Positions 3,477 to 64,000 of a stretch of 64,000 bases of DNA are shown here, one piece after another. Source of the stretch: an uncultured Armatimonadota bacterium. GTDB lineage: Bacteria; Armatimonadota; Armatimonadia; Armatimonadales; Armatimonadaceae. The notes beneath the pieces are model-generated. The model was not told the DNA's origin. It made no database searches and worked only from the letters and a program-made list of their open reading frames with translations. How positions within the stretch are numbered: position 1 is the first letter of the stretch; each line of letters starts with the position of its first letter. The stretch covers positions 1 through 64,000 of the forward strand of contig CAIVZM010000017.1 in NCBI GenBank assembly GCA_903910385.1, given 5' to 3'. The position numbers were made by a program, and so were the translations under genes.

Positions 3477-4568
3477 CTACAAATGTTCCGGCGCTCGCCT
3501 GGTAGAGGCGCGAACGATCAAATTTACCGGCAATAAGTAGCGAGCGACGGGGAGGGTAACTCCGCCGCCCGCCGCCTCGCTCAATCGCGCCTGCAATCGA
3601 CGAAGCGCTAGCCGGCCCATTGCCTGCTTATCGACATGGACTGTCGTCAGGGGCGGATTACAATGCGCCGCTGACTCTCCGTCATCGAACCCTGCGATAC
3701 TGATATCCTCCGGTACGCGCAGTCCCAGCGCCTGACAGACCTGCAGGGCTTGTAGGGCGTAAAAATCATTCGCTACCACAATCGCTGTCGGTCTTTGTCT
3801 CCCACGTTCTTTCAGATATATCGCCAGAAACGCCGATACATCGCAACCGCCTTCATAAAGACCGCCATTCCCTTCCAGACAAAGCGTTGGATCAAGAGGA
3901 ATTCCCGATTCCGCCAGTGCGCAGAGATAGCCGCGTTGACGATCACGAAAAGTCGCTGTGTCCTTCTCCGGGTTCAGAAAAGCGATTCTTCTATGTCCCC
4001 ATTCGATAAGGCGTTGCGTTACCGCATACGCTCCGCCAAATCCGTCCGAAAGAATGCAATCGTGAGCGTCCGTTGAGTCATAGGCATCTACAATAACGAT
4101 GTGCGGAATATGCTCCGCAAAAGCCTGTAAAACTGTTGTATTTGCCGCGCCCACCAATAATAATCCACTGATCGCTCGTTCGTGAACCATACGCGGCAGC
4201 TCACGATCAAAGGTGTGGCGGTCGGTCGTATGCACCAGAATATGCAGACCCACTGCCGCCGCTTCCGCCTGAACGCCAAACAGCACCGGCGCATAAAATG
4301 TGTTAAAGGGCAGGGCGTCGTTTCCTGCCGCAAAAAACTGAAAGCCTACCGTGCTCAAAGCCGGGTTTTGACTTGTCTGACTTCGCCGCATCGCTGCTCG
4401 TAAACGTGGGGCGTCCGGCGCTCCGCGAGGACAATAGTTCAAAGCTTGCGCCGCTTCCAGAACACGACTTCGCGTTTTGTCGCTTATTTTTTCAGGCGCT
4501 CCAAAGGTTCTGCTCACCGTCGCCGTGGAAACTCCCGCCCGCTTCGCTACATCGTGAATACTAGGCAT
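3477..4568 (-). CDS. LacI family transcriptional regulator
   Basis: This 363-residue regulator begins with the canonical LacI helix-turn-helix (MPSIHDVAKRAGVSTATVSR) and hinge helix, followed by a periplasmic-binding-protein-like ligand domain (residues about 65-355). IAGFDDGESAAHCNPPLTTV near residue 290 is the family-typical second subdomain motif. Ligand is unknown, probably a sugar. The start has no Shine-Dalgarno; instead TACTAT on the minus strand (4575-4580) ends 6 nt before the ATG, suggesting a leaderless transcript. The divergent neighbour is an S1/P1 nuclease, and the shared 130-bp intergenic region holds TTTGCAT/ATGCAAA palindromes that fit a LacI operator, so autoregulation is likely. 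Confidence 0.92.
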   Translation of the reverse strand: MPSIHDVAKRAGVSTATVSRTFGAPEKISDKTRSRVLEAAQALNYCPRGAPDAPRLRAAMRRSQTSQNPALSTVGFQFFAAGNDALPFNTFYAPVLFGVQAEAAAVGLHILVHTTDRHTFDRELPRMVHERAISGLLLVGAANTTVLQAFAEHIPHIVIVDAYDSTDAHDCILSDGFGGAYAVTQRLIEWGHRRIAFLNPEKDTATFRDRQRGYLCALAESGIPLDPTLCLEGNGGLYEGGCDVSAFLAIYLKERGRQRPTAIVVANDFYALQALQVCQALGLRVPEDISIAGFDDGESAAHCNPPLTTVHVDKQAMGRLALRRLQARLSEAAGGGVTLPVARYLLPVNLIVRASTRRAPEHL

Positions 4569-4586
4569 GACTGCATAGTACGTCTA

Positions 4587-4632
4587 TTTGCACGATTTGT
4601 CAATGCAATTTGCATAGTTTGCATCATGCAAA
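4587..4632. promoter_or_regulatory. Putative LacI operator cluster (TTTGCAT palindromes)
   Basis: TTTGCATCATGCAAA at 4618-4632 is a perfect 15-bp palindrome with an odd centre. Another TTTGCAT half lies at 4609-4615, and a spaced pair TTTGCA (4587-4592) / ATGCAA (4603-4608) adds further half sites. All lie between the divergent lacI-type gene and the nuclease gene, where an autoregulatory operator is expected. Assignment to this regulator is by position and symmetry only. Confidence 0.55.
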
Positions 4633-4674
4633 TCATGACTTTTTTTGTTCCTGTTCTTTGCATGTCAGGGGACG

Positions 4675-4680
4675 TATAAT
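4675..4680 (+). promoter_or_regulatory. Predicted -10 element of the S1/P1 nuclease gene
   Basis: A perfect TATAAT lies 18 nt before the ATG at 4699, with GGGGAG between the two as ribosome binding site. No good -35 hexamer is visible at 16-18 nt spacing. The element is 42 nt downstream of the palindrome at 4618-4632, so a bound repressor would lie just upstream of or within the promoter. Confidence 0.5.
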
Positions 4681-4698
4681 CGTCCGGGGAGCAAATCA

Positions 4699-5748
4699 AT
4701 GTCACCACTTTTTGCTACAGGTCGTCAAAGTATGGGACGGTTTCGGGCGAGCGTCGCATTTCTGGTCGCGCTATCATTGCTGACGATTCAAAGCGCTCCG
4801 GTCTTTGGCTGGTTTTTTGAAGGTCATGCACAGATCGCCGATATCGCCTGGACACGGCTGACGCCCCGCGCCCGGGCGGCGATCACCGATATCCTAAAAC
4901 TGGGACCGCAGGCGTACCGCCCGAAGTCCGATTCGGAAGCCGATGTTCGCGCCGCCTTCGCCCGCGCCTCCGGCTTTGCAGATGATATCAAGAACGACCG
5001 CCAGACACCCGCCGAATACAGCGCTCTTCTTCCGCAGATGAACCGTCTCTTCTTCGACGGGGAACCGCCCGCCAACGATAACGAAGCGAACCGTTGCAAG
5101 ACCTGGCATTACTATGATGTTCCTCTGCGACTCCCGGAAGGCGTTACTGCTCCGCCGCGCCGCACTTCCAGTATCCTGATCGCTTATCCCTACGCCATCG
5201 TGCAATTGAAGCGGTTGAGTAAAACGCCGGAGAAGGAACGTGCTCTACAATTCTGGTGGCTGGCATGGATCGAACATCTGGCGGGAGATGCGCACCAACC
5301 CCTGCACTGCGCCGAAAGTTTCCAATTTGAAAAGGAAGGCGATGCCGGAGGCAACCTGTTCCTGCTGGGTTTCAAGGATGAACGGGATCGTCAGGTACGA
5401 CTGCACGCTTACTGGGACGGCGCCCCGAACGATATCATCACCCATGAGAAAGCGCAAAACCTTGCGGTCAATCTTTCCGCCGTTACAGACCGCTGGACGA
5501 AGGAATTGCCTGAATCCGCTTTCGGCACGGCAGTACAGCGACTTTCGCTTTTCCGATGGGTAGCGGATGGCGCAAGTGAAGCGCAGTTCGAAGTGTATGA
5601 GGATATCAAACCCGGTGAGAAAAGAGACGACCTGAAGCGCTCCGGCTACGAGTCCCGCCGTGACGAACTGGCGAAACGTAAAGCCGTTCTGGCAGGCTAC
5701 CGTCTGGCGGCGACCCTGAACCGAATTTTCGAGTCCCCGGATCAATGA
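4699..5748 (+). CDS. Secreted S1/P1-type zinc nuclease
   Basis: The protein (349 residues from ATG 4699) belongs to the S1/P1 nuclease family, which cleaves single-stranded nucleic acids and removes 3'-phosphates using three zinc ions. After a signal peptide ending near APVFG, the mature N-terminus starts with Trp (WFFEGHAQIADIAW), whose main-chain N and ring are a zinc ligand environment in this family; further ligands are visible in HYYDVP, GDAHQPLH and LHAYWDG. I prefer 4699 over the in-frame ATG at 4645 because GGGGA sits 8 nt upstream and the TATAAT lies between the two. ATG 4732 (MGRFRAS) is another possibility. It should act outside the cytoplasm in nucleic acid scavenging or phosphate acquisition. 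Confidence 0.88.
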   Translation: MSPLFATGRQSMGRFRASVAFLVALSLLTIQSAPVFGWFFEGHAQIADIAWTRLTPRARAAITDILKLGPQAYRPKSDSEADVRAAFARASGFADDIKNDRQTPAEYSALLPQMNRLFFDGEPPANDNEANRCKTWHYYDVPLRLPEGVTAPPRRTSSILIAYPYAIVQLKRLSKTPEKERALQFWWLAWIEHLAGDAHQPLHCAESFQFEKEGDAGGNLFLLGFKDERDRQVRLHAYWDGAPNDIITHEKAQNLAVNLSAVTDRWTKELPESAFGTAVQRLSLFRWVADGASEAQFEVYEDIKPGEKRDDLKRSGYESRRDELAKRKAVLAGYRLAATLNRIFESPDQ

Positions 5749-5790
5749 TCAATCTGTGATTGGTCTATGGCGTGGTAAAACATTTTCAAG

Positions 5791-6309
5791 ATGAATAAAG
5801 AAACAATGTCTCCGTTAGTCGGGGTGATTATGGGCAGTAAATCGGACTGGGAAACCATGCGTCATGCCCACGAGACGCTCACCAATTTTGGCGTTCCCCA
5901 TGAATGCAAGATCGTTTCCGCCCACAGAACGCCCGATGCGATGACGGAATACGCCGAGTCTGCGACCGTGCGTGGTCTGGAAGTCATCATCGCTGGGGCG
6001 GGCGGCGCAGCGCATCTGCCGGGCATGGTGGCTTCGTACACAATTCTCCCCGTGCTGGGCGTTCCCGTGGAAAGTCATGCTCTGCGGGGGCAGGATTCCC
6101 TTCTTTCGATTGTACAAATGCCTGCCGGTATCCCGGTCGGGACGCTGGCTATCGGTAAAGCCGGAGCGGTGAACGCCGCCTTACTGGCAATCGCTATTCT
6201 GGCGAACTCTCGCCCCGAATTACGATTGAAGTTACAGATGTTCCGTGATGAACAGGCAGCGCGGGTACGAGCGGATGTCCTGCCATTGGAAACCCCGGAG
6301 GCGTCCTGA
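5791..6309 (+). CDS. purE: N5-carboxyaminoimidazole ribonucleotide mutase PurE
   Basis: The 172-residue protein is a class I Pur[15 protein letters not shown] at the N-terminus is the phosphate/nucleotide-binding motif, SAHRTP holds the catalytic His, and [11 protein letters not shown] and PVLGVPVES are the conserved glycine-rich loops. It converts N5-CAIR to CAIR in de novo purine synthesis. The class I type agrees with the presence of purK, which makes N5-CAIR, 2 nt downstream. No strong ribosome binding site is seen; ATG 5806 (MSPLVG) is an alternative start that would fit the usual N-terminus better. Confidence 0.97.
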
Positions 6310-21849: not shown

Positions 21850-23523
21850 CTATGCCTGAGGACGGGCGCTTCGACGGCGATTTGCTGAAATACCATTCGC
21901 AATGACAAACGCCACCACGCCGAAGCAAGCCGCAATCATGCCGGACCGAACCAGAGACTCGGTGAAGGCGCCCACATGATCTGTAGCGAGAGCGGGGCTT
22001 AAGATCCACAGGGACGTCAGGGGATTGGTTTCCCATGAACTTTGCCCCATTGTCAGGACAAGCATCGGCAGTCCGGCGACGGCGATGAGCAAGGCGAAAG
22101 CGGTCGCCCGTGCCGACGATAATTGGGTGACCATACTTCCGGCAAGGCGCGATAACGTCCAGATCAGAAAGCCGACACAGATTGCGTAGAATCCGCCTGC
22201 GATCAGGATTCCGCTCAAGAAGGACAGAAAGCCCGGACGAAACGACGCGCCGATTACTGCTCCCAGAAGAGCCGTAGATACCCAGAGCAGATAGAAGGGC
22301 ATCGACCCGCTATGTTCCGTATGGAACGCCCGGTTCCAGACGATCCGGCGCTGGCGGGAAGGTTCGTCTGCGGCATTCGCAACCGCTCCCGGAGGCGCGT
22401 CCGCTCCTGTTGCGGGAACGAATAATCCCGGCAAGAAAGGCATCGCTACCGCCAGAGGGAAAATCATAACCCATAGAATAGGCGTTGATGACACGGTGAA
22501 CGATTGGGTTTCGCTATAACCCATCATGTCCATCGTCACATGACTGGCGGCGCTATACATCGTCCCGGCGACGGTGACAAAAGTCAACAGGAGTATCTGC
22601 TTGCGCAGAGAGGGACCGCTCGCCGCGCCGAATAACCCGAGGCGGTAGGTCGATGCGGTAAGTAACAGGCGGATGATCAAACTGGCGATACCCAGAAACA
22701 GAACCATTCTCGTCAGCAATGCCAGCGATGAGCCTTCTCCGTTCATCACGGGCATCACCGCAAGGACAGGATTCAACCACGCAATTTCCAATCCCGGCGC
22801 CAGAGGCATGCTGAAGTTGTTGGTGGAACCTGATAGGGACATCGCTCCTGCTACATAGGTGGCGGCGAAATAGCCTGCCACCGCCGCATAAGTCCAGATT
22901 GTCGCCAGTAGGGGCGCGGGAACGGCGCAGGAAAAGAACAGCCCGATTGCGGAAAGGATCACGCTATCGACCGCCAGAAGGAAGTAGACGCGGAAAACGT
23001 CCGCCAGAGTCGCGCCGCCCAGAAGGATACACAGCGCCGAGGCGGGCAGGGATAGAATGAGCAGAAGACTCAGGAAGGCGATGCTCGACATCAATTTGCC
23101 AATCAGGATATGCCCTGAGGTCAACGGAGTCGTGACCAGCAAATCGAAGGATTGACGCTGTCGTTCCCCGACAATGGACGCCGCCGTCAGAGCGGGAGCG
23201 ATCAACGTGATCAATGCGCTCAGCGTGATGAAGATAAAGTAATAAAAACCTTCCAGTTTGCCCTGAGCGTCCACGATGTTGAACGCCGGTCGATCCCCGC
23301 CATAGGTGAGAGGATTGAGGCTCTGTCCGGTGGAAACGGCATACCCGGAGACGGCAAGAATGCCCATCAGCAGTAGATACCCGCCCATGAACCAGTAGGA
23401 ACGAGAGCCGCGCATCTGCGCCCGTAAATCGCGTATTACGATGGGATTGGCGACAAACTGCTTGAGGCCGGGAAAGCGGCGCAACAGCGCATCGATGGGG
23501 GATGGCGCTACTTTGGTTGTCAT
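21850..23523 (-). CDS. ABC-2 type transporter permease
   Basis: This 557-residue integral membrane protein starts with a cytoplasmic segment typical of ABC-2 permeases (NPIVIRDLRAQMRGSRSYWFMGGYLLLMG) and has roughly twelve membrane segments. EGFYYFIFITLSALITLIAPALTAASIVGERQRQSFDLLVTTPL carries the conserved SIVGERQ..T/DLL..TPL element of this family, described here in two pieces. It is the last gene of a five-gene operon: 2 nt separate it from the ATPase gene upstream. It presumably forms the translocation path together with the 307-residue permease. AGGAAAGG is the ribosome binding site, inside the ATPase 3' end. Confidence 0.9.
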   Translation of the reverse strand: MTTKVAPSPIDALLRRFPGLKQFVANPIVIRDLRAQMRGSRSYWFMGGYLLLMGILAVSGYAVSTGQSLNPLTYGGDRPAFNIVDAQGKLEGFYYFIFITLSALITLIAPALTAASIVGERQRQSFDLLVTTPLTSGHILIGKLMSSIAFLSLLLILSLPASALCILLGGATLADVFRVYFLLAVDSVILSAIGLFFSCAVPAPLLATIWTYAAVAGYFAATYVAGAMSLSGSTNNFSMPLAPGLEIAWLNPVLAVMPVMNGEGSSLALLTRMVLFLGIASLIIRLLLTASTYRLGLFGAASGPSLRKQILLLTFVTVAGTMYSAASHVTMDMMGYSETQSFTVSSTPILWVMIFPLAVAMPFLPGLFVPATGADAPPGAVANAADEPSRQRRIVWNRAFHTEHSGSMPFYLLWVSTALLGAVIGASFRPGFLSFLSGILIAGGFYAICVGFLIWTLSRLAGSMVTQLSSARATAFALLIAVAGLPMLVLTMGQSSWETNPLTSLWILSPALATDHVGAFTESLVRSGMIAACFGVVAFVIANGISANRRRSARPQA

Positions 23524-23525
23524 GA

Positions 23526-24479
23526 TTAATGCACCTTTCCTGTTGTCACGCGCAGGAAGACGTCTTCGAGATCCATCGCGCTCTCGGCGAACGAAGTCAA
23601 TGGGTGTTCTTCTGCGATCAGGGAACGCAGTAGAATCGCCTGTTGCTCCACATTGCCGGTAAAGGCGACGCGAACAGTGTACGGCGTATCCGTATCGCGG
23701 GTCACTTTTTCGATCAGCGGATGATCGCGCAGGGTTTCCAGCAAACGGGTTACTGCGGAATCGTCATTCCGGACGGAAATCATCAACTGGCGGGTCGGTT
23801 GCAACTGGCGGACAATGGTCTCGACATCGCCGCTGACCAGCAGTTTCCCGCGCTCCTGAATCCCGATCTTGTTGCAGAAATCCGCCAGTTCCGGCAGGAT
23901 ATGCGACGAGACGATAATCGTCTTGCCCAGAGCCCCCAGACGCGCAATCAGTTTTTTGATATCGATACGGGCGCGCGGGTCGAGACCGGATGCCGGTTCA
24001 TCCAGCAGTAATACTTTGGGATCATGCACCAGGCACTTGGCAAGGCATAACCGCTGTTGCATACCGCGAGAAAGCGTCTGAACATAGGCGTCCCGCTTTT
24101 CCATCAGGTCTGTCACGGTCAGGACGCGTTCGATAATTTCCGGGCGCGATTCCTTCGGCGGGTCGTAAGCCGCGCAGAAGAAATCCAGATATTCCCACAC
24201 CTTGATGTCGTCGTAAACGCCGAAGGCGTCCGGCATGTATCCGATATAGGGGCGCACTTCACGGGGAAAGCGCACGACATCAATCCCATTGACGGTGGCG
24301 GAACCGGAGGTCGGCTGGATCAGGGTCGCCAGCATTTTGATGGTGGTCGTCTTGCCCGCGCCGTTCGGTCCGATAAACCCGAAGATATCGCCGGGATAGA
24401 GGTCCAGAGTCCATCCTTCTACAGCAACCAGAGTTCCGTAGGTCTTGCGGAGGTTTTCCGCGCTAATCATGGGTTGCAT
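23526..24479 (-). CDS. ABC transporter ATP-binding protein
   Basis: The 317-residue ATPase has Walker A GPNGAGKTTTIKML (about residue 37), Q-loop region YMPDAFGVYDD, signature LSRGMQQRLCLAK (about 140), Walker B VLLLDEPASGLDP (about 160) and switch His in VSSHILPEL. A C-terminal domain of about 90 residues follows, as in exporters of the CcmA/NatA/DrrA type. It energises the flanking ABC-2 permeases. It is 6 nt downstream of the 307-residue permease and 2 nt before the 557-residue one. Confidence 0.95.
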   Translation of the reverse strand: MQPMISAENLRKTYGTLVAVEGWTLDLYPGDIFGFIGPNGAGKTTTIKMLATLIQPTSGSATVNGIDVVRFPREVRPYIGYMPDAFGVYDDIKVWEYLDFFCAAYDPPKESRPEIIERVLTVTDLMEKRDAYVQTLSRGMQQRLCLAKCLVHDPKVLLLDEPASGLDPRARIDIKKLIARLGALGKTIIVSSHILPELADFCNKIGIQERGKLLVSGDVETIVRQLQPTRQLMISVRNDDSAVTRLLETLRDHPLIEKVTRDTDTPYTVRVAFTGNVEQQAILLRSLIAEEHPLTSFAESAMDLEDVFLRVTTGKVH

Positions 24480-24485
24480 CAGCGG

Positions 24486-25409
24486 TTAACCTCCTTTCTC
24501 TTTTCGTGTCGCCTGCATCGGCATACCCAACCGCGCCAGCGCCTTGAGCGTTCCCGCAACGCAAAGTCCCGCCCCGATAAGGTAAAGGAAAGGCGCTATC
24601 AGGAAAATGCCGCTATCGCGCCACATATCGCTGGAAATCATGGTCTGCGAGGAATTTTCCATCCAGAGAATCACCAGAGCGGGATTCAAATGCGCGATCA
24701 GCGAGGACACAATCCATGCGGTAGGCGGACGGGTATTCTCGTACCCATACGTATAGCCTTGAGTGAACGCGCTATCGCTCGTCATGCTCACGCCGAAAAC
24801 GCTCATCAGCATGGGTAACAGAACCAGGGTGAAGAGCAACGACAGAGTGACTATCGACAGAGTAGCGACGGAGCGTTTCGTATTCGCGGAGATATAAACC
24901 GTAAAGGTCGCCAGAAAGACGCACCATGCGGCAAGCAGGAACTGTATCCACAACAGCGCAGGCAGGGCATAGGACTTGTTGTAATGCGACGTACAGTGCG
25001 TCAGTAGCAGTGGCGGCAAGAAGATCAGCATGATGATTCCCGCCAGACTCAGACGCCAGAGCAGCTTTCCCGCCAGAATACGCGACGGTGACAGATTAGT
25101 CAGGATCAGAGAGTCCCAGGTCATCCGCTCGCGTTCGCCGGAAATCGCGGTGTACAGCGATCCCGGAATCAATAAGGTCAGCAGGCCGAATTCGAACCAG
25201 AGAATGCCCTGACTCATGTCGTCCTTGTACATGACGATGGTCACCAGAAACCAGGCGTACAGTACATACAGGAGTCCGAACAGGATACGCGTAATGGTTC
25301 GTTGCGTCGTTGCGGTGTAGTCGCCGGACACGGTGAATCGTCGGATAGCCCGTGTCGTTTCGATTTGCATCGGGTTTTCCCGAAGCAGATAGCGCCAGAG
25401 ATGGCTCAT
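24486..25409 (-). CDS. ABC-2 type transporter permease (second subunit)
   Basis: The 307-residue protein has about six membrane segments and the family element PGSLYTAISGERERMTWDSL near residue 80, equivalent to the SGERE-type coupling motif of ABC-2 permeases. Its ATG overlaps the stop of the 865-residue upstream gene by 4 nt, so translation is coupled. Together with the 557-residue permease and the ATPase it makes a plausible heterodimeric exporter. The cargo is unknown. Confidence 0.88.
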   Translation of the reverse strand: MSHLWRYLLRENPMQIETTRAIRRFTVSGDYTATTQRTITRILFGLLYVLYAWFLVTIVMYKDDMSQGILWFEFGLLTLLIPGSLYTAISGERERMTWDSLILTNLSPSRILAGKLLWRLSLAGIIMLIFLPPLLLTHCTSHYNKSYALPALLWIQFLLAAWCVFLATFTVYISANTKRSVATLSIVTLSLLFTLVLLPMLMSVFGVSMTSDSAFTQGYTYGYENTRPPTAWIVSSLIAHLNPALVILWMENSSQTMISSDMWRDSGIFLIAPFLYLIGAGLCVAGTLKALARLGMPMQATRKEKGG

Positions 25410-28003
25410 TTCGCGCCTCCCTTCGTTACGGTCGTCGCCGGGACAGTCCCGGGCTTAGTGGTGGGCTGAGCGGCGGCAGGGCGTGGCATTGACTCCGCTA
25501 CGTAACCGCCACCGGTCGGTAATGTTGCCCCGCGACTATCTGACGCTATGGGACCGCCGTAACCGCCAACAGAGGGCGGATTGGATGTTGTAGGCATCGG
25601 CGTTTTCAGGTCTTTTCCGGTATTTATGTCCAGTCCGACCACCAGAGTTACAGAATCCTTTGCGGATACATCCCCGCCGATCTGCGGACCGAACTTCGTT
25701 CCCGGTAACTTCGCCATCAACGTCGGACGACGAAGACTGACATCCCCAAAGTTCATATCGGGAGTCGCTCGATATTGCAGATAAGAGTTGCCGTTCGGAC
25801 TTTCATCTCCATAAATCGCCGTCGTAATCTGGCGCGCCGGGATAACCACTTCCGCCGCTCCCGGTCTCAGAGAACCGAGCGTAAAGGTAGTGTATTGCCA
25901 GCGCCGCCAGTCCGGATGATGGGCGTCCGGCGTCACGATGCGCCACACGGTGATTATCGCATCCTGCAGGGTTTCGCCGGTCTGGTTGTCGATGGACGCT
26001 ATCGCTTCCCCGTTGGAACCACCCCGTAAGGTCGCGGTAATGCCGCCGGGCAGACGGATACTTTGCTCGTGACCGAGACGTCTAAAAGCGAGATTATTGA
26101 CGCTGAACGCCGGGGCGACGAGATTTCCCTCTGCATCTTCCGCTGTGGTCAGGGAGCTTGCCCTGTCATCCACTTTCAACCGTTCTTCCAGTAGTTCCAT
26201 GCCCGGAATGGCGATTTTGTAGTTTCCGGCATGAGGGAAGAACATTTCGGTGTATCCGGAAAAATGACCCAGCGGGTCGTTCTGCGCCAGCGTGAGCACT
26301 CCCGCCGTTCGCCGTGACGTTGGCATGAAATACAGTTGCACGGTCAGCAAATGAATGCCTGCGGCGAAGAGCGCAGCCAGCGCCGGGCCGGTAAACCAGG
26401 CGAGGTTCATGCGGCGCGTATGCTTGAGAACGACGAAGGTTACGGGAATGGCAAGCAGGAAATACGCCAGGAAGAAGTAGGTTACTGTCGGCGTTGAGGG
26501 AAGCGCAAGGTAGAAGGGATCATTAAGACCATTCGCGCCATTTTCGCTCATGATACGGTTTCGCGCCGCCAGTGTCAGCAACTGACGTTGATTCAGCGAA
26601 CCGGTTCCCTTCAGTTGACTCAACTTTTGCCATAGCGTAGTGTAATTTTCCCATTCGCGCAAGTTGTCGTTTGTCGCGTCAAAGTTGGTATAAAGCGTTG
26701 ATCCTGCACCCAGAGGCTTCCAGATGATGGTAGGACGATTTCCCGCCTCAATATTCGTATCCGCAGGAAGCGCCAGGTCCAGCGCCTGTGATATCGCTCC
26801 GTCCGAAGGCGTAATCGTTGTTTTGCCTGAGACGGTTTTGGACAACTTCACCGGAGCGAGTTTCGCCCCCTCCGCTGTTTGCAGCAGAGGGTTATCCTCG
26901 CCGCCCATCATGTAGACGGCCCCGCCTGTTTTTACCCATTCACGAATCGCTGTCCATTGTGCGCTGTTCAAATCTCTGCCGTCATGACTGATGACCAGCA
27001 GTCGCAGTCCGGAGTAACCGATGGCGCGATCCGGCGCATTTTCGACCGTGGCGTATGCGCCGGGCAACTGAGAACCGTTCGGCATGCCGTTATTCGCGTT
27101 CAGATTTGGTCTTCCCGGAATTTGCCTCGGTTCGAGGGCTCCCAGTTTTTTACCGATGTACCCGATTACCGAGTCGCTAGATCCGCCACGGAAAGGAATG
27201 GGTGTGGAATTGATCTTCCCGTTCAGCGATACCGTGACTGTCATGGAACAACCATAGGATAAGGTTGCCGGGTCTGGTCGGGGATAAAGGGTGACTTTCG
27301 ATTTCTGATAACCCGGTAAATGGACGATCCGTCGGTAGGTTCTCACGTTGCCATTGCCAGCGACATTGACTGTGAAGGTGGCATTCCCCTCTGGACCATT
27401 ATTGGTCACGGTCGCTATCAGCGGCATCGTCTCCGCAGTGTCCAAGCCTTCGAATGCCGGAATGACTGTCAGATCGGTAGCTCTCGCTTGCATGATCGCC
27501 GATGCAGGGCGCACGGTAGCTTGCATCGCTTGCGGATTGAACGAAGGCGTTATCTGGTCTTCCTGATGGCTTTCGATGGCTCCGGGATCGTTCCTGAACG
27601 GGGAGGGAAACGCCACAGCGACAAAACCCGCCGCCAGCGCCAGCGCCGCCGCCGTCAGGGATCGACCGCTCAGAAGTGGCCATTTCTGGCGTCGTTCGGT
27701 CTGTAGCGTGCGTGCCCCGGTCGATGGCGTCTCAGATTGTAATCTGGCTTTGACCGCTGACCAATCGCCCGGCCGCTCCGGGGTAGGGGCGCTGGCAAAA
27801 GCGTTCCATGCGGCGCCCGTCCGCTGATACTCCTGAGCGGCATCGCGGCATTTGTCACACTTCGCCAGATGCGCTTCGATCTGGCGACGCTCGTCTTCGG
27901 GGACTCCCGCTGGAGTCATGTAGTCTTCCAGACGGGGTTCGATGGCGTCGCAATCGTCGCCCCCGCCGTTTCTGTTCCGGAATGTCCAGAATGCGCTTTT
28001 CAT
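25406..28003 (-). CDS. Anti-sigma zinc finger fused to a large ABC-associated membrane protein
   Basis: This 865-residue protein begins with a cytoplasmic zinc-binding anti-sigma (ZAS/zf-HC2) finger: His45, Cys49 and Cys52 in HLAKCDKC. A membrane segment follows at about 108-130, then an extracytoplasmic beta domain (about 180-270), a flavodoxin/GATase-like segment (LLVISHDGRDL, TGGAVYMMGGED, about 330-370), two membrane helices (about 505-550; FFLAYFLLAIPVTFVVLK) and a long C-terminal beta-rich region ending in a Gly/Pro-rich tail. The latter part resembles auxiliary proteins of GldG-like ABC systems and is paralogous to the 667-residue protein at 53607-55610. It is 6 nt downstream of an ECF sigma gene and overlaps the permease gene by 4 nt. 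I infer that it holds the sigma factor and links its release to the exporter or envelope state. Confidence 0.8.
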   Translation of the reverse strand: MKSAFWTFRNRNGGGDDCDAIEPRLEDYMTPAGVPEDERRQIEAHLAKCDKCRDAAQEYQRTGAAWNAFASAPTPERPGDWSAVKARLQSETPSTGARTLQTERRQKWPLLSGRSLTAAALALAAGFVAVAFPSPFRNDPGAIESHQEDQITPSFNPQAMQATVRPASAIMQARATDLTVIPAFEGLDTAETMPLIATVTNNGPEGNATFTVNVAGNGNVRTYRRIVHLPGYQKSKVTLYPRPDPATLSYGCSMTVTVSLNGKINSTPIPFRGGSSDSVIGYIGKKLGALEPRQIPGRPNLNANNGMPNGSQLPGAYATVENAPDRAIGYSGLRLLVISHDGRDLNSAQWTAIREWVKTGGAVYMMGGEDNPLLQTAEGAKLAPVKLSKTVSGKTTITPSDGAISQALDLALPADTNIEAGNRPTIIWKPLGAGSTLYTNFDATNDNLREWENYTTLWQKLSQLKGTGSLNQRQLLTLAARNRIMSENGANGLNDPFYLALPSTPTVTYFFLAYFLLAIPVTFVVLKHTRRMNLAWFTGPALAALFAAGIHLLTVQLYFMPTSRRTAGVLTLAQNDPLGHFSGYTEMFFPHAGNYKIAIPGMELLEERLKVDDRASSLTTAEDAEGNLVAPAFSVNNLAFRRLGHEQSIRLPGGITATLRGGSNGEAIASIDNQTGETLQDAIITVWRIVTPDAHHPDWRRWQYTTFTLGSLRPGAAEVVIPARQITTAIYGDESPNGNSYLQYRATPDMNFGDVSLRRPTLMAKLPGTKFGPQIGGDVSAKDSVTLVVGLDINTGKDLKTPMPTTSNPPSVGGYGGPIASDSRGATLPTGGGYVAESMPRPAAAQPTTKPGTVPATTVTKGGAK

Positions 28004-28009
28004 AGCGGA

Positions 28010-28708
28010 TTATTCCCCCTCCTCTTTCAGTAGCGACAGGAAGATATTTTTGAAACGCTGTCGCGCACGGAAAGCTCGCACCGGAGCGCTGATTCGGGTG
28101 CAACCGATCGCCGCCGCAATATCGTCCATGTTCATACCTTCTACATATCGCAAGAGTAAAATTTCCCGGTCGTCGGGCGCAAGACGGCGCAAGGCGGTCT
28201 GCACCTGCGCCGCATCGGCGGCGCGTTCCATAGAGTGAAAGGGATCATCGAAGTCGTGGGAGGAGTTCAGGACGAGATTGGTCGCGCCTTCCGGCGTCGT
28301 CAGTCCATATCCGTGTTCGGCGTGTCGTTTCTTCTGTCGCAGACGGTCGCGGCAAATGTTGCCGCAAATGGAGAACAAATAAGTGCGAATCCGACAATCG
28401 CCACGGAACTTTGCAAGCGACTGACATGCCCGAATGAACGTTTCCTGCCGTATATCATCCGCCTCTTCCACATTTTCCATCATGCGATACGCATGGCGGA
28501 AGACGGACGCTTCGTACCGATCATAGACCAGTCCGAAGGCTTCTATATCGCCGGTCCGGGCGCGGGCGATCCATTCCTCTTCTTCGACGCGTCGGGCGAT
28601 TTCTTCCAGCACGCCTCGTTCCGAGGCCGCTACCGCCTGCCATGCCGCTGTGGTCGCCGCAGAGGATGCGGAGTTCGTCACCGTCGCTGAAACTGACACG
28701 CTTTTCAT
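28010..28708 (-). CDS. ECF-type RNA polymerase sigma factor
   Basis: The 232-residue protein has sigma region 2 (YDRYEASVFRHAYRMMENVEEADDIRQETFIRACQSL, split here as YDRYEASVFRHAYRMM and ADDIRQETFIRACQSL, about residues 63-100) and region 4 (LRRLAPDDREILLLRYVEG and MDDIAAAIGCT, about residues 168-205) and no regions 1 or 3, as in ECF sigma factors. The 50-residue N-terminal extension is Ala/Ser/Thr-rich. GAAAGGGT lies immediately before the ATG. It heads the operon with its presumed anti-sigma partner. The unusual end of region 4 (CTRISAPVRAFRARQRF) replaces the more common SxxxVKSRLxRA, but the basic character is kept. Confidence 0.9.
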   Translation of the reverse strand: MKSVSVSATVTNSASSAATTAAWQAVAASERGVLEEIARRVEEEEWIARARTGDIEAFGLVYDRYEASVFRHAYRMMENVEEADDIRQETFIRACQSLAKFRGDCRIRTYLFSICGNICRDRLRQKKRHAEHGYGLTTPEGATNLVLNSSHDFDDPFHSMERAADAAQVQTALRRLAPDDREILLLRYVEGMNMDDIAAAIGCTRISAPVRAFRARQRFKNIFLSLLKEEGE

Positions 28709-28840
28709 ACCCTTTCACCACGTTTGGACGTTGTTGAGAGGCAGTTCATTACATTAGGAACGGGGCGACGATAAAAAAAGTTACGGAACGCTCACCTATC
28801 CCGGTATAAACCATTGGTAACAGCGCGATCGTCATCGTTG

Positions 28841-53606: not shown

Positions 53607-55610
53607 ATGACCTGGAAGACGGATACCAAAAAATATCGTTGTGAGCGCTCAAGCCTCAACACTGCGTCTCGGTATGCTCCCGGCGGCGAAGAACGTCTGG
53701 AACTCTCCTTAACGTCCCGCGCAACCCTGCGCCTCTTTCTTCAATGCGCTCTGGCGTTCTTTGTCGGTGTAAACGTTATGGCGCTTTGCGCCAACAAGGT
53801 TTTTGCCTCCCCTCCGCAACTGGATGCCGCCCCGGCGTTCGGGGACACTTTGTTCCTCTCAAAGTGGCAGACGGTCAATGTGACGGTGGCAAATCCGGCG
53901 GATGGCGATGCATTCCAGGGCGAAATTCAAGTCGCAATAGAGGATCAATCGACGGGGCAGCGCCTGATGGCGTTTGGTCGTTCGGTGGCGTTGCCGCGAG
54001 GGGCGGGAAGCGTCCGTGTCCCGATCACGATTTACCTGACGGATCGCGTCCTTAACAGCGGGCTTCATCTCTTGTTGATCGCTTCCCCGAATCAGGGTGG
54101 TAATTTGATGGCGCAGAGAACCATCAAAAGTCTGTCCAGGTGGATCAACGGCGCCGCTCTGGTGGCGGTGACGCAAGTGCCAGACGGAATCGGAGCGCCT
54201 GCGGGTACAGATATTCGATTGATTACTTCGGCGCAACCCCCGAACTCTCCGCCCGCCCTGCCAATTCGGGTAACATACGCAACGGATCCATCCGCCTTGC
54301 CAGATCGCGCCGCAGGGTATCAGGCGGCGGAAGCGGTATGGCTGGGACCGGATATATCCCCTGGCGTATTTTCAGATACTCAGGCGGAAGCTTTGCGACG
54401 ATATGTTTCCATCGGTGGACTTTTACTTCCCTCGAGCGTCGCCGCAGAAAAATTACGTAAGGATGAGCGTTTTCGCCCCTGGATACCGCCGCCGGGCGTG
54501 GCTGTGGCTCGTTCGATTGGGCGGGGAACCGTATCGATTCTCAACGACAATGCCATTCCTGCAAACGCTACGGACGCCGTGGTTTTCTGGCGGCGATTTC
54601 TGCAACAACAGATACCGCCGCAAAGCGTGGGGCGTGTGGCGAGTGACAACGATGGATTCGGATACAACTATTTCGCTAACAGCGTACTTCATCTTTCTGG
54701 ATTATCTTCCCCCAGCGTTGTCGGAGTCGGTGGGTTTCTCCTCGGTTATCTGCTTCTGATCGTTCCCGTAAATTACCTTATTCTCAAGCGTCTCGACCGA
54801 CGCGAATGGGCATGGTTCACCATTCCAACTTTCGCTGCCCTGTTTTCGCTTGGGGCGTATGGCTTCAGCTATGCCACGAAAGGAAGGCAGGTGTGGGTAA
54901 ATATCGCAAGCATCGCCGAGATGACGAACGAAAGCGGCGAAGCATTGATACATTCCGCAATAGGTCTCTATTCCCCGGTGCGCGCTCGCTACAATGTCGG
55001 TATAGATGCCGCAGACGCTGTGGTCTGGCGTCAGGATGACGGTCTTATGGGGGAAGCGAATATTTCGAATCCTCTGTTTTTCGAGCGCGACTCGGGCGGT
55101 TCCGTCGCGCAGGGCGTCACGACTCCCATGTGGGGGATGGCGGTAACGCTGGCGCAGACAACCAGTATCACATTGAAGGACGGCTTTACGATTCAGTCCG
55201 TGAGAAAGGGAAGCGAAATTGAAGGGACGGTGATAAACCGGACGGGGCGACCATTAGAGAATGTTGTGATTCGTCTTGGTTCCAACGGAAAACGTCTCGG
55301 AAACCTGGGGTCGGGTCAGACGCTTGCGTTTCGCTTTCATACTGGAAGGGAAGATCGCCTTGCGATGGAAACTGGCTTCGAACTGGAACCGCCTCAAGAA
55401 GCCAAACCGTCGGCGGAAGTGATGCGGCGTCGGGTTGCCGCCGGGATTTCGCAGGGAGCGTTCGAAGGTCTGGGACTTCAATTCAGTGAAAAACGCCTGA
55501 CGTTGACCGGTTGGTCGTATGAACCTCTAATGCCCGTGCAAATCGATGGGCGTAGCGTTAACTCCGGCGAAAACGTTTCCCTGATCATCGTTTCCAGGGA
55601 CGTTCCCTGA
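53607..55610 (+). CDS. Large extracytoplasmic membrane protein, paralogue of the ABC-associated fusion protein
   Basis: The 667-residue protein has a cytoplasmic N-terminal segment, a first membrane helix at about 45-68, an immunoglobulin-like domain (about 75-190), a flavodoxin/GATase-like segment (AEAVWLGPDISPG, RRYVSIGGLLLPSSV, about 228-275), two membrane helices (about 365-415; GGFLLGYLLLIVPVNYLILK, RREWAWFTIPTFAALFSLG) and a beta-rich C-terminal region. The order matches residues 100-865 of the protein at 25406-28003, without the zinc finger. The nearest sigma/anti-sigma genes are at 56490-57571, convergent to it. It probably forms part of a similar envelope system whose exporter is not in this window. 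Confidence 0.75.
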   Translation: MTWKTDTKKYRCERSSLNTASRYAPGGEERLELSLTSRATLRLFLQCALAFFVGVNVMALCANKVFASPPQLDAAPAFGDTLFLSKWQTVNVTVANPADGDAFQGEIQVAIEDQSTGQRLMAFGRSVALPRGAGSVRVPITIYLTDRVLNSGLHLLLIASPNQGGNLMAQRTIKSLSRWINGAALVAVTQVPDGIGAPAGTDIRLITSAQPPNSPPALPIRVTYATDPSALPDRAAGYQAAEAVWLGPDISPGVFSDTQAEALRRYVSIGGLLLPSSVAAEKLRKDERFRPWIPPPGVAVARSIGRGTVSILNDNAIPANATDAVVFWRRFLQQQIPPQSVGRVASDNDGFGYNYFANSVLHLSGLSSPSVVGVGGFLLGYLLLIVPVNYLILKRLDRREWAWFTIPTFAALFSLGAYGFSYATKGRQVWVNIASIAEMTNESGEALIHSAIGLYSPVRARYNVGIDAADAVVWRQDDGLMGEANISNPLFFERDSGGSVAQGVTTPMWGMAVTLAQTTSITLKDGFTIQSVRKGSEIEGTVINRTGRPLENVVIRLGSNGKRLGNLGSGQTLAFRFHTGREDRLAMETGFELEPPQEAKPSAEVMRRRVAAGISQGAFEGLGLQFSEKRLTLTGWSYEPLMPVQIDGRSVNSGENVSLIIVSRDVP

Positions 55611-55635: not shown

Positions 55636-56490
55636 TTAACCGCGCAATTCCAGACTCGCCTCAACGGTCTCGGTAACCGCCGCGACAATGATACGATCAC
55701 CCTCGACACGCTCTATACGAACCGTCGCTCCCGGTTCCAGAAAGCCCGTTTCCGAAACGACAATTGCCTGAATCCCCATGAACTCCGCCGTTCCGGTGGG
55801 GCGCAGTGCGATCAAGGTGGTTCCGATCTGACCGGGTCTCAATAGGGGGGCATCGCTGACCGATGGATTGAGAACTGCGTGCTGTTGTTGGATGCGTAGT
55901 CGTTCCTGTTGCCATGCAGGGGATTTCGGGAGATACGCCAGAAACGCGATTCCCGTGACGACCGTCATGAACAGGGTGACAAGCGCCGCAAAGGCGGCGT
56001 TATGCGTACTGCTCAAAGCGATCAGCATCCCGGAAAAAAGGAGCGCAAACCCGCCGATCGCTAATCCTCTGCCCGGCAGAGCGTGCACTTCCAGCAAAAC
56101 TCCGGCTAGACCTGCCAACAGAAGAATGATGCCCACCCATCCTACTTCCCCGATGATGACCTGCGCGACAAAAGCGGTAATCAGAAAAAGGACGCCCAGT
56201 GTGCCACGTAAATCCCAGTCGGTAGGTGTCAGGAGATCCCAATAGACCAGAAGTAGCCCGATAGCAAGGAGGCAAAACAAAGGCAGGGGACGGACAATGA
56301 TCTGCGCCGCGCTATTGAGCCATCCGGTAGACGAGGGATGCGCTGGCGCAACAACGACTCCCTGCGCATAAGCGACTATACTCGCACACAGGGCAAGCAG
56401 AATAGCCAACCCTGCATGCAACAGCATTTGCCACAAAAATTTGACTGGGGCGCCGTCCGACCGAAACGCCGCTCGAATCATGCCTGTCAT
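55636..56490 (-). CDS. NfeD-like membrane protein
   Basis: The 284-residue protein has an N-terminal hydrophobic segment (about 15-45), a cluster of five or so membrane helices (about 65-190) including LVYWDLLTPTDWDLRGTLGV and GVLLEVHALPGRGLAIGGF, and a soluble C-terminal OB-fold domain (about 215-284; GTAEFMGIQAIVVSETGFL, GATVRIERVEGDRIIV). This is the full-length NfeD layout without the N-terminal protease domain. NfeD proteins partner with SPFH/stomatin proteins in membrane microdomains; none is next to it here. The start overlaps the anti-sigma stop by 1 nt (TGATG), giving a sigma/anti-sigma/NfeD operon. Confidence 0.87.
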   Translation of the reverse strand: MTGMIRAAFRSDGAPVKFLWQMLLHAGLAILLALCASIVAYAQGVVVAPAHPSSTGWLNSAAQIIVRPLPLFCLLAIGLLLVYWDLLTPTDWDLRGTLGVLFLITAFVAQVIIGEVGWVGIILLLAGLAGVLLEVHALPGRGLAIGGFALLFSGMLIALSSTHNAAFAALVTLFMTVVTGIAFLAYLPKSPAWQQERLRIQQQHAVLNPSVSDAPLLRPGQIGTTLIALRPTGTAEFMGIQAIVVSETGFLEPGATVRIERVEGDRIIVAAVTETVEASLELRG

Positions 56491-56921
56491 CAGGCAACCC
56501 GACTTCCTTCGTTCGCAGTGAACGGATCATTTTTGACGTACTTGCTCATACGCGCCTCCGTATTGGCGGCAAGCACCTGTGTAAAGACAATCGCTCCCGC
56601 CGCAACGGAACCGAGGAATCTACCTGCTTTGAGTTTCAGTCTCCCGCCGAATGCAAGCTTTTCTTCCTGATCGATTGCGGCGATTTTAGGCGCCATTTCC
56701 GCCCAGATGTCCAGCGCCGGCTCACGACGCGGCACCTGATGATGAAGCAGATGCATTAGCATTCGCATCTGGCGTTCCTCATGAGCGCAATCTGAACATT
56801 CCTTGATATGCCGTTCAATCAGCTGTTGCCGGGGGGAGGGAAGGGATCCCTCCACATAGTCCGACAGCGCCTCCCGGACGGGAGCGCACTGCGTCGTGCT
56901 ATTACCCATTCCGCCGCTCAT
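56490..56921 (-). CDS. Membrane anti-sigma factor with zinc finger
   Basis: The 143-residue protein has the ZAS finger: Cys12, then His38, Cys42 and Cys45 in HIKECSDC. A single membrane helix (about residues 101-118) follows, with a short outer tail. It should bind the sigma factor encoded just upstream and hold it at the membrane. Its ATG overlaps the sigma stop (ATGA), so the two are made together. No protease gene for its cleavage is near. Confidence 0.88.
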   Translation of the reverse strand: MSGGMGNSTTQCAPVREALSDYVEGSLPSPRQQLIERHIKECSDCAHEERQMRMLMHLLHHQVPRREPALDIWAEMAPKIAAIDQEEKLAFGGRLKLKAGRFLGSVAAGAIVFTQVLAANTEARMSKYVKNDPFTANEGSRVA

Positions 56922-57571
56922 CGTACATTACCCCCTTCTAAAATTGCCAGATAAGGTTGAAAACGCTTTTTAAACGCTTGTCTGGCGCGATGAATTTTCG
57001 ACTTGACATTGACCAACGAAAGTTCCGTCACCTGACAAATCTCCTCATAACTCAATTGCTCAAAATCACGCAGGATCAGCAAGAGCCGAGCCTCCGCCGG
57101 AAGAGTAACAAGAACCTTATCGACGATGCGCTGTAACTCGCGGGTCTCGCAGAGTCTGGCGACATCCATATTCGCGTCAATAGGTTCATTACCCGGATGC
57201 TCTTCCTGTGATTCTTCGAGCGAATCCTCAGTTATAACATTCTTGTGGCGCAAATGGTTCAGACAAGTATGCCGTGCGATGGTGAACAGCCAGGTGGAAA
57301 ACTTGCTATCCCCCCGGAACGTTTTGAGCGAACGATATGCCTTCAGGAAGACGTCCTGCGTCAAATCGTAGGCGTCTTCCCCGCGCACCATCCGTGTCAC
57401 CAGATTGAAAATCGGCGTCTGATACTTGCGAAATAGCGCCTCGAACGCTTTCGGGTCGCCACCGAGATGCTGGCGCACCAATACAGCGTCCGGGTCTATC
57501 ACCCGTACTCCTGTACCGACTGCCGCAGCCTGTGGCGAGAGCGTCACCCCTCCCCGTCCTGTCCAGGGCAT
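56918..57571 (-). CDS. ECF-type RNA polymerase sigma factor
   Basis: From ATG 57571 the protein has 217 residues with region 2 (LFRKYQTPIFNLVTRMVRG and DAYDLTQDVFLKAYRSLKTF) and region 4 (LPAEARLLLILRDFEQLSYE and ICQVTELSLVNVKSKIHRAR). AGGAGG (57581-57586 on the minus strand) sits 9 nt before this ATG, which supports it over the upstream ATG at 57643; the extra 24 residues would be unusual. It heads the operon with its anti-sigma factor and NfeD. Confidence 0.92.
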   Translation of the reverse strand: MPWTGRGGVTLSPQAAAVGTGVRVIDPDAVLVRQHLGGDPKAFEALFRKYQTPIFNLVTRMVRGEDAYDLTQDVFLKAYRSLKTFRGDSKFSTWLFTIARHTCLNHLRHKNVITEDSLEESQEEHPGNEPIDANMDVARLCETRELQRIVDKVLVTLPAEARLLLILRDFEQLSYEEICQVTELSLVNVKSKIHRARQAFKKRFQPYLAILEGGNVR

Positions 57572-57734
57572 ATTAATAGCCCTCCTGCGTCCTGTCGGCA
57601 ATGCCGTCCGTATCGCTTCCGCGACCTGGATGCCCGAACTCATTGTTCATGCATTCCTATTATAAACTTATAAACCGATTTCTACACGGCGCGATTGATA
57701 TTCGCGCTCTGCGATCCACTCTCGTATGGTGTTA

Positions 57735-62830: not shown

Positions 62831-63121
62831 TTAGCTACCTTGAACTTTTCTTCGCTTCCGACGATTCAAGACGATCAATACGACGCCTGTCGCTACCACC
62901 CCAATCATCGCCTGAATACCGACAGACAGGAAGAAAGCGATAGCAAGACAGGCGAAGATGACCGGCGCGGCGGCGCGAATCAAAACGTTAGAGGCGCCGG
63001 GATAGTAGAAGCGGGCGTATTTCTCCGGAATCCCCGGTAAAAAAAGCAGGGACAGGAGAAGGAACATCCCGCCCAAGGAAGCGAAAAGGCTATTCACACA
63101 GGATAGAACGGGAGATACCAT
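62831..63121 (-). CDS. Small membrane protein
   Basis: From ATG 63121 the protein has 96 residues with two or three membrane helices (about 9-28; 46-62; 66-84) and a basic tail NRRKRRKVQGS that should be cytoplasmic. No family is recognised. GGGAG lies 10 nt before this ATG. The frame is open up to 63292, but that would run into the divergent oxidoreductase gene starting at 63215; ATG 63172 is an alternative. Confidence 0.65.
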   Translation of the reverse strand: MVSPVLSCVNSLFASLGGMFLLLSLLFLPGIPEKYARFYYPGASNVLIRAAAPVIFACLAIAFFLSVGIQAMIGVVATGVVLIVLNRRKRRKVQGS

Positions 63122-63214
63122 CAGAAAGTTACTCCCTGAACCCTGCTTTTGATGGGCATTATATTCGGGCATTACATTGACGATAATAAACAGGGACAAA
63201 CAAGAGAAAAACGG

Positions 63215-64000
63215 ATGAGTGAAACGATAGATTCGTCGATGAATCAGGTGAAAATCGCGACGTTGCGGGATATAAGCGCATTCCAGGCTCATGTCGCAGC
63301 GTTATCGTTGGACTTTCCCTGCGATGATGCGATAATCACCGGGACGGATGCGCCGCTGGCGCGTTCCCTGACCGCCTTCGGGAAGCGGATTGGTAACCGG
63401 TTCGCGATCCAACCGATGGAGGGGTGGGACGGGACGACAGAGGGAAGACCGTCCGAACATACTATCCGCCGCTGGCGCCGGTTTGGGGAAAGCGGGGCGA
63501 AACTGATCTGGGGCGGCGAGGCGGTCGCAGTTCGTCCGGATGGACGCGCCAACCCAAATCAGTTAATGATAAACCCGGAGACGCTTTCGGATCTTGCCGG
63601 ACTGCGTGATGCCCTGATGACGGCGCACCGGGAAGCGATGGGCAGTACGGATGATCTGGTCATCGGTCTGCAACTGACGCATTCCGGTAGGTTCGCTCGC
63701 CCGAACGATAAAAAGCGCATGGAACCGCGCATTCTGTACCGGCATCCGATCCTCGATAAGCGTTTCGGGCTAGGTGCGGATTATCCTCTGTTGACCGACG
63801 GCGAAATCCACGAATATATCGACGACATTGTGACCGGCGCGAAGCGGGCGCACGATCTGGGGTTTGATTTTGTCGATATCAAGCACTGTCACGGCTATCT
63901 CGGGCATGAGTTTCTGAGCGCATTTACCCGTGAAGGCGCGTTCGGCGGGAGTTTTGAGAACCGGACGCGGTTCCTGCGAGAGATCGTCGCCGGAATTGAG
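63215..64000 (+). CDS. Old Yellow Enzyme-family NADH:flavin oxidoreductase, truncated by the window end
   Basis: The frame from ATG 63215 runs without stop to the last base (262 codons). It matches the OYE-like FMN oxidoreductase TIM barrel: [20 protein letters not shown] near residue 64, [20 protein letters not shown] near 155, and [20 protein letters not shown] plus [16 protein letters not shown] near 220, which contain the paired His and the substrate/flavin site residues. The rest of the barrel lies past the window. Substrate is unknown. The upstream ribosome binding site is weak. It is divergent to the small membrane protein gene. Confidence 0.92.

Follow-up and report, generated by a model that had tools for sequence, protein, structure and literature searches.

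In B. subtilis the SigY operon, with yxlCDEFG, holds an ECF sigma factor, membrane anti-sigma components and an ABC exporter. The genes yxlC, yxlD and yxlE have been named as regulators of sigma-Y (PMC4326333). BceAB-BceS is an established case of an exporter that signals its state to a regulator (PMC6978683), and ECF257 is a recorded ECF group with ABC transporters nearby (PMC8999054). TolB of T. tengcongensis, a proven anti-sigma factor, consists of a cytoplasmic tail of 39 residues and one transmembrane segment in front of its outer domain (PMC3397946). In class-I anti-sigma domains helix 4 binds the sigma2 domain and probably carries the specificity of the pair; class-I domains without zinc are common, and the class-II anti-sigma factor CnrY acts with two helices (PMC7406223). 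Here we describe an operon in which a class-I anti-sigma domain has been fused to a subunit of an ABC exporter. A search of the literature for such a fusion, with partial coverage, yielded no description.

Gene content of the operon

The window, i.e. the whole stretch of 64,000 nucleotides that was analysed, contains an operon of five minus-strand genes with intergenic gaps, from the sigma factor to the second permease, of 6, -4, 6 and 2 nt, the gene of permease 1 overlapping the fusion gene by 4 nt. The first gene (28010..28708, -) encodes an ECF sigma factor of 232 aa, as judged by matches to Sigma70_r2 (E 8e-15), r4_2 (E 2e-11) and TIGR02937 (also over cut-off). It is followed by a gene for a protein of 865 aa (25406..28003, -), in which a cytoplasmic anti-sigma domain and a transmembrane helix are followed by an extracytoplasmic, exporter-associated protein that has two more hydrophobic segments. 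Next come an ABC-2-type permease of 307 aa (24486..25409, -), a DrrA/GldA-like ABC ATPase of 317 aa (23526..24479, -) and a second ABC-2-type permease of 557 aa (21850..23523, -). The assignment as an ABC-2 exporter relies on the ATPase, which matches ABC_tran over the cut-off (E 1e-27; TIGR01188 and TIGR03522 below it), and on the permeases, which are polytopic with many hydrophobic segments. Both permeases match ABC2_membrane_2 below the cut-off in hmmscan, as permease 2 does GldF; permease 1 has the same place in relatives, and permease 2 is the same gene there. The open reading frames lie exactly where the first-pass annotation had placed its five genes with these gaps, and the family models agree with its naming of a sigma factor, two ABC-2 permeases and an ATPase, at sub-threshold scores for the permeases.

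The class-I anti-sigma domain occupies residues 16-90 of the fusion (27734..27958, -) and comprises a zinc finger (C18/H45/C49/C52) and the predicted helix-4 segment GDWSAVKARLQSE, with all four ligands and this segment intact. The zf-HC2 model matches the N-terminus over all 35 positions with 25.2 bits in a genome search (cut-off 22.2), and with 21.3 bits, just below cut-off and as a half match, by hmmscan. The NCBIfam anti-sigma model NF052375 matches residues 34-157 (E 3e-11, under its own cut-off). Residues 17-87, including the expected helix 4, match a stand-alone anti-sigma factor of 193 aa encoded in the same genome (contig C28; BLAST, E 3.7e-6), adjacent to which lies the nearest own-genome paralogue of the operon's sigma factor. 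The zf-HC2 score in the genome search and this match place the domain among the class-I anti-sigma factors (ASDI), and RsiW (5wuq) and chain 3hug gave weak sequence matches. AlphaFold predicts helices in the expected places (16-28, 36-48, 50-71 and 81-90) at low confidence (pLDDT 57; 32 for the full fusion). A Foldseek search with this weak model of the N-terminus gave no match, nor did the fusion match a FecR domain at E 0.1.

The transmembrane helix (residues 112-133; 27605..27670, -), located by alignment and hydropathy, aligns where the unfused relatives have a signal peptide, so that this single N-in helix serves both as membrane anchor and as substitute for the signal peptide. The reading frame of 865 codons is open through the junction, with alike codon-position GC on both sides. 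The fusion is genuine, and the N-terminal HxxxCxxC finger is, as had been claimed from the letters alone, physically part of the transporter-associated subunit.

Upstream of the operon we identified a candidate autoregulatory promoter, GTAACTT-N14-CCGTTC (28758..28784, -), of ECF-like form and unproven. A similarly spaced GTAA...CGTC precedes the related operon discussed below. Across the genome the pattern occurs no more often than its reversed control, and it delineates no convincing regulon; because there is no excess, the candidate is not counted as evidence. Perfect copies number two, including the site of derivation. The other (63106-63132, -) lies inside a frame of 153 aa (62831-63292, -) without family match and may be there by chance.

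The exporter subunit family and the history of the fusion

The exporter-associated part (residues 178-865; 25409..27472, -) belongs to a family that is widespread in the phylum, and includes a conserved hydrophobic pair (residues 505-557; 26333..26491, -) recognised by alignment and hydropathy. Homology of the fusion to the unfused relatives starts near residue 160-180, past the finger and the first transmembrane helix. Within the phylum, 187 of 291 genomes contain the family, as a rule with neither sigma factor nor finger. Among about 140 loci that were retrieved, 139 family genes were inspected. Downstream of most of them lie genes for a permease, an ATPase and a second permease, in that order; a sigma factor gene lies directly upstream of only two, those of the window and of G016, which represents another genus of the same taxonomic family. 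Since the module of subunit, permease, ATPase and permease is kept without sigma factor in most relatives, the exporter was there first and acquired the anti-sigma domain later. Long N-terminal extensions also appear in other family members (L215, L065, L224, L191, L063 and L222); these were rejected as start-codon artefacts, a signal peptide being visible inside.

The first-pass annotation had called this part large and GldG-like. The large exporter-associated part stands, and the GldG label does not: none of 12 members matched GldG or ABC_transp_aux at E 0.01 (Pfam) or 0.1 (NCBIfam). The nearest named families are DUF4350 and DUF7408, both below cut-offs, and the likeness to Gld proteins is limited to permease 2 (GldF) and the ATPase (GldA), again sub-threshold. 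The window also encodes a second, diverged member of the family (53607-55610, +), beside which no ABC genes were recognised. Convergent with it are genes for NfeD (55636-56490, -), a small zf-HC2 anti-sigma factor (56490-56921, -) and its ECF sigma factor (56918-57643, -). A family member with a nearby convergent sigma/zf-HC2 pair is also present in G018 (L080) and G010 (L213).

The G016 operon carries both the sigma factor and the membrane fusion (L042, 980-3619), so that the co-occurrence in related genomes for which the first-pass annotation had proposed to look does exist; it is visible as far as permease 1, inside which the contig stops. Among 19 genomes of the order, the sigma ortholog is restricted to these two genomes, in both of which the gene is intact. 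The G016 sigma factor is the closest relative of that of the window (151 bits, against 95 bits for the runner-up), and the two are sisters in the sigma tree (support 100/99). The sigma factors share 46% and the fusions 30% identity; co-occurrence in spite of this divergence argues that the linkage is under selection. In the G016 fusion the cytoplasmic domain has about 56 residues, the transmembrane helix is kept and is followed by a long charged linker, and HxxxCxxC is absent, helices 2-3 and the zinc ligands having been lost. The zinc motif is thus not the conserved element. A helix-4-like stretch, GSFAALVNRLEKS, corresponds to GDWSAVKARLQSE of the window. Given what is known of helix 4, of zinc-less domains and of CnrY (PMC7406223), the loss of the finger leaves the case for sigma binding standing.

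In the subunit tree the window and G016 proteins are sisters (100/83), joined next by that of G017 (100/98), which belongs to the same family and has a plain N-terminus and no sigma factor, and then by that of G041; in a second subunit tree the support for the pair is down to 96/61. A single gain of sigma factor and anti-sigma domain by an existing exporter operon would be the simplest reading of the trees.

Anti-sigma proteins had been assumed in the first-pass annotation to be usually small, an expectation that fails in this order, in which fusions of 400-870 aa are common, with varied C-terminal parts without exporter link. The zf-HC2 matches in the 19 genomes include 16 frames of at least 400 aa, that of the window among them. 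Domain shuffling onto anti-sigma factors is therefore ordinary here, and the unusual part is the exporter subunit as fusion partner. One zf-HC2 protein of 871 aa, in a frame of 879 aa, without other named domain (L241 of G010, 3580-6195) was considered as a member of the exporter family and rejected, being another anti-sigma fusion outside it. Fusions of zf-HC2 with DUF4349 were observed in L242 (8210-9601, by model match) and L246 (5447-6811, by similar sequence).

Sigma factors beside the exporter family in a second phylum

A match at L009 was set aside, since the long protein that holds it is part of another operon, and its genome led to a survey of a second phylum. In a search of 398 genomes (E 1e-10 or better) centred on G291, a MAG titled Clostridiales, the exporter-subunit family was found in 49. 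A same-strand ECF sigma gene lies upstream in 13 of the 40 loci that were fetched. Two of the 13 (L282 and L294) have a zf-HC2 protein between sigma factor and subunit. The other 11 have a separate, membrane-anchored TolB-propeller protein of 440-490 aa, the gene order being sigma factor, propeller protein, subunit, ATPase and permease. In the propeller proteins, three of which were checked against models, an N-terminal cytoplasmic stretch and one transmembrane segment precede the TolB/PD40 propeller; by analogy with T. tengcongensis TolB they are probably anti-sigma factors. This operon, which appears to be undescribed, is found in L275 (3841-8197), L273, L277, L278, L290, L292 and L295-L299 (L295 being cut at both contig ends), and its propeller proteins share the cytoplasmic motif HMRxVRxxVPVN.

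In the second subunit tree the sigma-linked members fall into three separate clades, one of the 11 loci with a propeller protein (99/98), one of the two with a zf-HC2 protein (100/100) and one of the fused pair. Sigma linkage of the exporter family would accordingly have two further origins outside the phylum. Because genes for ECF sigma and anti-sigma factors recur beside the family in a second phylum, the link between sigma factor and exporter is no accident of one genome, and this recurrence is the strongest evidence for what may be a functional link. Coupling of sigma factor and exporter thus recurs, and physical fusion is rare; the fusion is known from two genomes only.

Possible mechanism and relation to described systems

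Gene order, intact finger, transmembrane helix, membership of the subunit family and shared descent of sigma factor and fusion in two genera can be read directly from the sequence. On balance we favour, with modest confidence, a model in which the anti-sigma N-terminus of the accessory subunit of a four-gene ABC-2 exporter keeps the ECF sigma factor at the membrane, exporter state or ligand releases it, and the sigma factor thereby autoregulates the operon. The first step is the firmest: the N-terminal arm very probably sequesters the sigma factor. By the ECF literature, helix 1 would contact sigma4 and helix 4 sigma2, keeping the sigma factor off RNA polymerase. The transmembrane/anti-sigma arm could then be moved or exposed, either because the exporter is engaged or changes its conformation or because the extracytoplasmic part binds something; that it is the state of the exporter that releases the sigma factor, much as the first-pass annotation had suggested, is plausible, and we rate it at slightly under an even chance. 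The freed sigma factor would transcribe its own operon, and the amount of exporter would follow demand. As to origin, a sigma/anti-sigma pair may have been placed upstream of an existing exporter operon, after which an in-frame fusion united the anti-sigma gene with that of the subunit, and the transmembrane helix of the anti-sigma factor took over from the signal peptide. Still more tentatively, the exporter might be its own anti-sigma factor, its transport-cycle or assembly state gating the ECF sigma factor via the cytoplasmic arm, which in G016 would have shrunk to a short sigma2-binding helix, like that of class-II CnrY; such an exporter would be the sigma-factor equivalent of flux sensing by BceAB-BceS.

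The fusion might instead be an ordinary membrane-anchored anti-sigma factor that uses its large outer part to sense envelope damage or a ligand and undergoes regulated intramembrane proteolysis; the exporter would then be no more than the regulated output, its activity not being read. Such proteolysis is the usual mechanism for membrane anti-sigma factors, and would suit both the large and varied C-terminal parts of the order's other anti-sigma factors, which have no exporter link, and the second phylum, where the candidate anti-sigma factor has a TolB-like propeller of its own, apart from the exporter subunit. Here, however, the outer part is the conserved subunit of the exporter, kept with permeases and ATPase, and not a dedicated sensor, and we consider this explanation rather unlikely. 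Less probable again is an assembly checkpoint, by which the subunit sequesters the sigma factor while free and has its anti-sigma domain masked or released once it is built into a complete exporter. The sigma factor would then report the ratio of subunit to exporter and not flux; the tight operon, with genes that overlap or nearly touch, suits such stoichiometric control, although sequence alone cannot separate it from the favoured model of release by exporter state or ligand.

The loss of helices 2-3 and zinc ligands in G016 and the borderline zf-HC2 scores in the window could mark the N-terminal domain as a relic without present function, yet the window retains all four ligands and the helix-4 segment, the sigma genes are intact in both genomes and their linkage to the fusion has survived deep divergence, so that a relic seems improbable. 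Least likely of all is that the domain senses redox state or zinc in the cytoplasm, in the manner of ChrR/RsrA, and uses the exporter subunit only as its membrane anchor, for although the window has the HxxxCxxC finger and some such fingers are redox switches, about half of the membrane anti-sigma factors carry the motif, which may thus be structural (PMC7406223), and G016 lacks it.

This natural fusion ties a sigma factor to an exporter family that is widespread, and can serve as a Rosetta stone for the sigma, anti-sigma and exporter genes that stand apart in the second phylum. If the favoured read-out of the exporter by the sigma factor is true, sigma activity would be a reporter for finding the exporter substrate, and flux sensing would extend from two-component systems to ECF sigma factors. 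The G016 version is a natural experiment from which it could be judged how many of the anti-sigma helices are required, and which.

With BceAB-BceS (PMC6978683) the proposed model shares that the activity of an ABC transporter is read by a transcription regulator of its own genes; there, however, the regulator is a histidine kinase with a response regulator instead of a sigma/anti-sigma pair, and there is no fusion. FecA-FecR-FecI (PMC9249621) likewise passes the state of a transporter via a single-pass regulator to an ECF sigma factor, but involves an outer-membrane importer and a separate regulator, FecR being a pro-sigma protein. The system of the window belongs to neither. The class-I anti-sigma factors (ZAS/ASDI: RsiW, ChrR, RslA and RseA) resemble the fusion in the zinc ligands, in helices 1-3 and helix 4, as predicted for the fusion, followed by a transmembrane segment, and in the cognate ECF gene directly upstream, whereas in the fusion about 690 aa of exporter subunit, with additional transmembrane segments, make up the C-terminal part, and the finger is lost in G016. 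RpoE1/TolB of T. tengcongensis (PMC3397946) shows the same succession of an ECF sigma factor and a membrane-anchored anti-sigma factor with a large outer domain, of the propeller type seen in the second-phylum operons, but its cluster has no such exporter subunit. The likeness to the SigY operon is drawn from gene content: both operons bring together an ECF sigma factor, membrane anti-sigma components and an ABC exporter, the anti-sigma components being small and separate in SigY, unlike those of the window.
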